The position numbers and the translations under genes were made by a program. Below are positions 35,619-35,665 of a stretch of 36,252 nucleotides of DNA, piece after piece. The notes under the pieces are model-generated. The model ran no database searches, was not told the DNA's origin, and worked only from the letters and a program-made list of their open reading frames with translations. This DNA is from Candidatus Nealsoniibacteriota bacterium (GTDB taxonomy: Bacteria; Patescibacteriota; Minisyncoccia; Minisyncoccales; JAGMDC01), in contig DAOWLG010000030.1 in NCBI GenBank assembly GCA_030643485.1, positions 1-36,252 of the forward strand, read 5' to 3'. The first letter of the stretch is position 1, and each line of letters starts with the position of its first letter.

Positions 35619-35665
35619 TGCCGAGACCCGTTCTCGTCCGGCACGGACGAGAACGGGTCTCGGCA
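35619..35665. repeat. GC-rich palindromic element, copy 1 (intergenic)
   Basis: TGCCGAGACCCGTTCTCGTCCG-GCA-CGGACGAGAACGGGTCTCGGCA; 22-bp perfect arms. Confidence 0.95.

Follow-up and report, generated by a model that had tools for sequence, protein, structure and literature searches.

The palindrome at positions 35619–35665, between the genes of a PilX-like protein and the DNA ligase LigA, is very probably a member of a REPIN-like family of non-autonomous mobile palindromes whose movement, we infer, is brought about by a RAYT, a single-strand transposase of the Y1 HUH type. At the level of sequence, four features support this interpretation: a family of related palindromes, arms that remain paired, positions that are mostly intragenic and in frame, and a physical link to RAYT genes, both in this genome and in relatives. 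The window, that is, the whole stretch of 36,252 nt that was analyzed, is the entire contig C47 and ends inside a third copy of the palindrome. The features considered here are as follows.

35181..35615, + strand: upstream ORF, PilX-like as judged by eye only, with no Pfam match.
35619..35665, no strand assigned: focal copy, a doublet palindrome between the stop codon at 35615 and the ATG at 35674.
35674..36252, + strand: 5' part of ligA (NAD-dependent DNA ligase), which continues on contig C4.
35995..36042, no strand assigned: second copy, with 24-nt arms and no spacer, in frame in ligA and encoding 16 extra residues.
36223..36252, no strand assigned: third copy, in frame in ligA and cut by the contig end, with its other half on contig C4.

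The focal copy was confirmed at the position and with the ends (TGCCGAG and CTCGGCA) given in the first-pass annotation. Its two 22-nt arms (35619–35640 and 35644–35665) are 100% complementary around a 3-nt centre, GCA, with outer arms TGCC/GGCA and inner arms GTCCG/CGGAC, and the palindrome fits tightly between its neighbours, 3 nt past the stop of the PilX-like ORF and 8 nt ahead of the ligA ATG. Matches to the 17-nt arm (≤3 mismatches) occur eight times in the window, compared to 0 in each of 100 shuffles. The 16-residue LigA insert, which sits shortly before the EPKIDG motif, is absent from both the LigA proteins of relatives and solved LigA structures. Contig C4, read on its reverse strand, starts with the other half of the third copy (10-nt overlap) and continues into the rest of LigA; thus, LigA carries two inserts. 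At the opposite end of the window (positions 1–60), the first bases contain AGCGAGTAATT, similar to a repeat, CGAGCGAGTAATTATGCGGC, that is present in about 20 copies in G002, the closest relative.

A search of the 765-kb genome (G000) for the pattern GAGA-N5-TCTC ... GAGA-N5-TCTC returned 26 full doublets, against 0 for the reversed pattern used as a control. Including partial copies, the family comprises about 29 members, as counted in an assembly that is 85% complete. Each copy consists of two inverted GAGA-N5-TCTC hairpin units and spans about 47–48 nt. The 5-nt loop is mostly CCCGT/ACGGG, the loop-adjacent bases are GTCC, GGCA, CCCC, and others, and core lengths lie between 31 and 40 nt and do not keep to multiples of three. 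The centre of the focal copy had been singled out as different; it does differ, but in an ordinary way, as the family has various centres, including GCA, TGCA, CGCG, CGTG, and GTTC. In one copy inside ArgRS (C40:858-894), the two units run in the same direction instead of being inverted. The exact core has no match in 146 relatives, and a degenerate core was needed to find their copies. Among public species genomes, the exact core was found in one Uhrbacteria MAG, with two copies, both in open frames; a core search of viral contigs found none. Together with the small genome and relatives of 0.3–1.5 Mb, this match suggests that the organism probably belongs to Patescibacteria.

The arms of these copies vary in a coordinated manner, as had been proposed. 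Compared between left and right arms over the 26 doublets, the inner four positions pair in 98/104 cells (maximum of 72 in 2000 shuffles) and the outermost four in 71/104 cells (maximum of 59 in 2000 shuffles). Left and right variants therefore change together and pairing is maintained, although the full complementarity of the focal arms does not extend to every copy. In the focal copy and a copy on C67, which combine GCC outer with GTCC inner arms, the short hairpin within one arm is weakened while the long hairpin is intact. Short-hairpin pairing over all copies also exceeds its own shuffles, so there is some evidence for each folding.

The family is dispersed through the genome beyond the ligA locus, and its copies are clustered: six pairs lie within 1 kb of each other (1.06 expected, P = 0.0004), and three copies fall within a single stretch of 630 bp (P = 0.007). 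The first-pass annotation had taken the three neighbouring copies as a sign of local spreading. The clustering is indeed above chance, but the ligA-internal copies have a core identical to that of distant copies on C15, C70, and C64, and hence need not derive from each other.

Most copies lie within genes: 23 of the 26 full copies are inside long open frames, defined as stop-free for at least 30 codons on both sides of the copy (P = 6e-7 if the frame were not conserved). Random insertion would be expected to leave 41% of copies in open frames for lengths of 46–51 nt, and 81% for exactly 48 nt. Since core lengths depart from multiples of three and the frames are nevertheless open, the reading frame of copy-bearing genes is likely under selection; all three codon phases are used, which argues that no one peptide is selected. 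The hosts, as assigned by NCBIfam and Pfam, are LigA, acetate-CoA ligase, a TIGR00375 protein, SecA, MurB, MurE, a SufC-like protein, ArgRS, a MurL-like protein, PEP synthase, TatD, IleRS, Elp3, enolase, ComEC, PolX, an indolepyruvate oxidoreductase subunit, two mannosyltransferase-like proteins, and an LTD protein, with RpoC as host of a partial copy. Many of these proteins besides LigA contain in-frame inserts relative to their G002 homologues. Overall, the palindrome sits mostly in essential genes of this reduced genome, lengthening their products by about 16 residues while leaving the genes unbroken.

This distribution bears on the suggestion that the focal palindrome acts as a terminator or mRNA boundary. 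A role of the copies as structural or regulatory RNA hairpins under selection, with the focal copy ending the PilX-like transcript, would be in keeping with the very stable hairpin at this gene boundary, as the focal copy is predicted to fold at −46.1 kcal/mol (z = −11.7). However, it has no T-run and was not listed by a terminator scan, the sole copy that the scan listed (35995–36042) is inside ligA, and the predominance of intragenic copies also argues against this explanation, which we consider very improbable. The terminator assignment was therefore not upheld.

Some inserts seem to persist across genera. The insert in the MurL-like gene (C40:15581-15619) is found at the same place in G001 (L120) and, apparently decayed, in G002 (L169), while others are absent from relatives. 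All three genera share the centre AAATT at this site, and the arms of the G000 and G001 copies show paired base differences. G000 (C63:12072-12110) and G002 (L161:3869) also have inserts at roughly corresponding positions of a mannosyltransferase-like protein, each being of that genome's own hairpin type; this would fit either a site that tolerates insertion or the exchange of an older insert for a new one. In the G002 homologue of C63:7311, also on L161, a repeated peptide, PARIGYAEGVAGG, occupies the place of the palindrome insert in G000, and this peptide possibly represents another repeat family in coding sequence.

An origin of the palindromes in chimeric or misassembled reads might be raised by the two contig ends (C47 and C4) that fall inside a copy. 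We regard such an artefact as scarcely credible: the copies form a single sequence family with coordinated variants, reading frames are kept, the MurL-like insert recurs at its site in other genera, and a short-read assembly is expected to break at repeated perfect palindromes. Assemblies may break at such copies.

The candidate mobilizer was sought as a transposase gene linked to the family, as the first-pass annotation had advised. A Pfam Y1_Tnp search of the palindrome's own genome gave no match; a profile built from relatives' proteins detected the 3' end of a RAYT gene (its final 62 codons, E = 5e-20) where contig C64 ends. A full copy (C64:15562-15603) begins 12 nt after the RAYT stop codon, between RAYT and enolase. 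The catalytic part of this RAYT is out of view because the gene is represented by one fragment at a contig end. Across the class, Y1_Tnp is present in 233/387 genomes, and the association between hairpins and Y1 genes is weak (P = 0.04, or 0.015 with the C64 fragment counted) and carries no weight in our interpretation; six hairpin-bearing genomes gave no Y1_Tnp match.

Of 20 Y1 loci taken from hairpin-carrying relatives, GAGA-N5-TCTC hairpins accompany the gene at eight, which come from five genomes. These hairpins are located before the ATG in 8/8, in frame at about codon 60–65 in 8/8, and after the stop in 7/8, and within each locus the loop and stem of the hairpins largely agree. At several other Y1 genes, hairpins with a different sequence occupy a comparable position. 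In total, nine RAYT genes in six relatives have a hairpin before the ATG and another in frame inside, and eight of the nine also have one after the stop. G002 encodes a full-length RAYT with three hairpins, together with dispersed single hairpins, several in frame in genes, whose loop and stem match those of its RAYT. All seven relatives' proteins that were profiled match NF047646 (REP-associated tyrosine transposase; best E = 1.7e-13, 50.7 bits, below the cut-off of 80) and PF01797, and three of the seven match the IS200 model weakly (best E = 0.003). The relatives' RAYTs contain an NHVHL-type HUH motif (H-x-H) and invariant tyrosines, a part that the C64 fragment lacks.

The in-frame inserts in housekeeping proteins resemble those reported for Rickettsia palindromic elements (RPEs; PMC3733652), and the genome itself contains only one RAYT fragment. 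The family could then be an RPE-like palindrome with another means of spreading, a hairpin having been inserted beside the transposase gene by accident. We consider this unlikely, as nine RAYT genes, from six genomes, share the three-hairpin layout and the dispersed hairpins of G002 match those of its RAYT. The likeness to RPEs lies in the type of insert, in-frame palindromes in proteins of a reduced genome; in contrast to RPEs, a RAYT is linked to the family here.

In the RAYT-mobilized model, the transposase would recognize the folded single strand and move or copy the palindrome. Recognition of single-strand hairpins is established for the HUH transposase superfamily (PMC6006769 and PMC8266576). 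Insertions would land anywhere in a gene-dense genome, and the survivors would be those that keep the frame in tolerant places, where the hairpin becomes extra peptide. The focal copy would have inserted into the short gap that separates the upstream stop codon from the ligA start. Its place just before an ATG resembles that of the upstream hairpin of RAYT genes, and it could conceivably influence ligA translation.

We compared the family with known systems. REPIN/RAYT systems consist of REP doublets that fold into hairpins (Bertels and Rainey 2011, PMC3116915), and the family shares with them two inverted REP-like units in one long hairpin, compensatory changes, and a linked RAYT gene with the same repeat. 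It differs in length (about 47–48 nt, versus roughly 71–110 bp between the conserved parts of REPINs), in its position in open frames where REPINs are extragenic, in a copy number below that of REPs (often over 100), and in the in-frame hairpin inside the transposase gene. GTAG/CGTC REPs and TIRtrons likewise occur inside coding regions, among them that of a DNA ligase of O. terrae, and self-complementary repeats have been reported on both sides of RAYT-like genes (Di Nocera et al. 2013, PMC3733652); however, most copies here are intragenic, inspection by eye of the flanks of copies and of relatives' RAYT loci showed no GTAG or CGTC tag as a constant feature at the hairpin foot, and CGTC is confined to the stem in copies of the GTCC subtype. 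IS200/IS605 elements share the Y1 HUH transposase superfamily (PF01797) and hairpins near gene ends, while the relatives' proteins match the IS200 model only weakly and the RAYT model in 7/7 cases, there with scores below its cut-off. We thus read the family as a REPIN/RAYT-like system that presumably works like a REPIN, unusual for its mostly intragenic in-frame copies and the hairpin inside its transposase gene; it is not filed as a canonical REP because it lacks the GTAG/CGTC tag and an extragenic location.

REPINs, RAYTs, and in-frame palindromes are each already known, and we found no paper in the open-licence literature joining them for this bacterial group; two papers there mention RAYTs together with candidate phyla, and neither, to judge by its title, treats this subject. 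In-frame palindromic inserts have been described from Rickettsia and from some other bacteria, partly with no evident mobilizer. In the present case, the inserts can be seen together with a linked transposase family and with relatives whose hairpins match their own transposase, which opens the origin of such inserts to testing. We tentatively put forward, as a possibility that we would not yet favour, that a reduced-genome RAYT lineage whose palindromes persist mainly in coding sequence, including in frame in the transposase gene, is the missing type of mobilizer for in-frame palindromes such as RPEs. Odd insertions of 10–16 residues in LigA, SecA, enolase, and tRNA synthetases of these lineages can be scars of mobile DNA. 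On either side of further Y1 genes of the class (L199, L204, L209, L213, and L214) lie hairpins whose sequences are unrelated, for instance CAACACCGAGTGTTGGACA, which suggests more hairpin families of the same kind.
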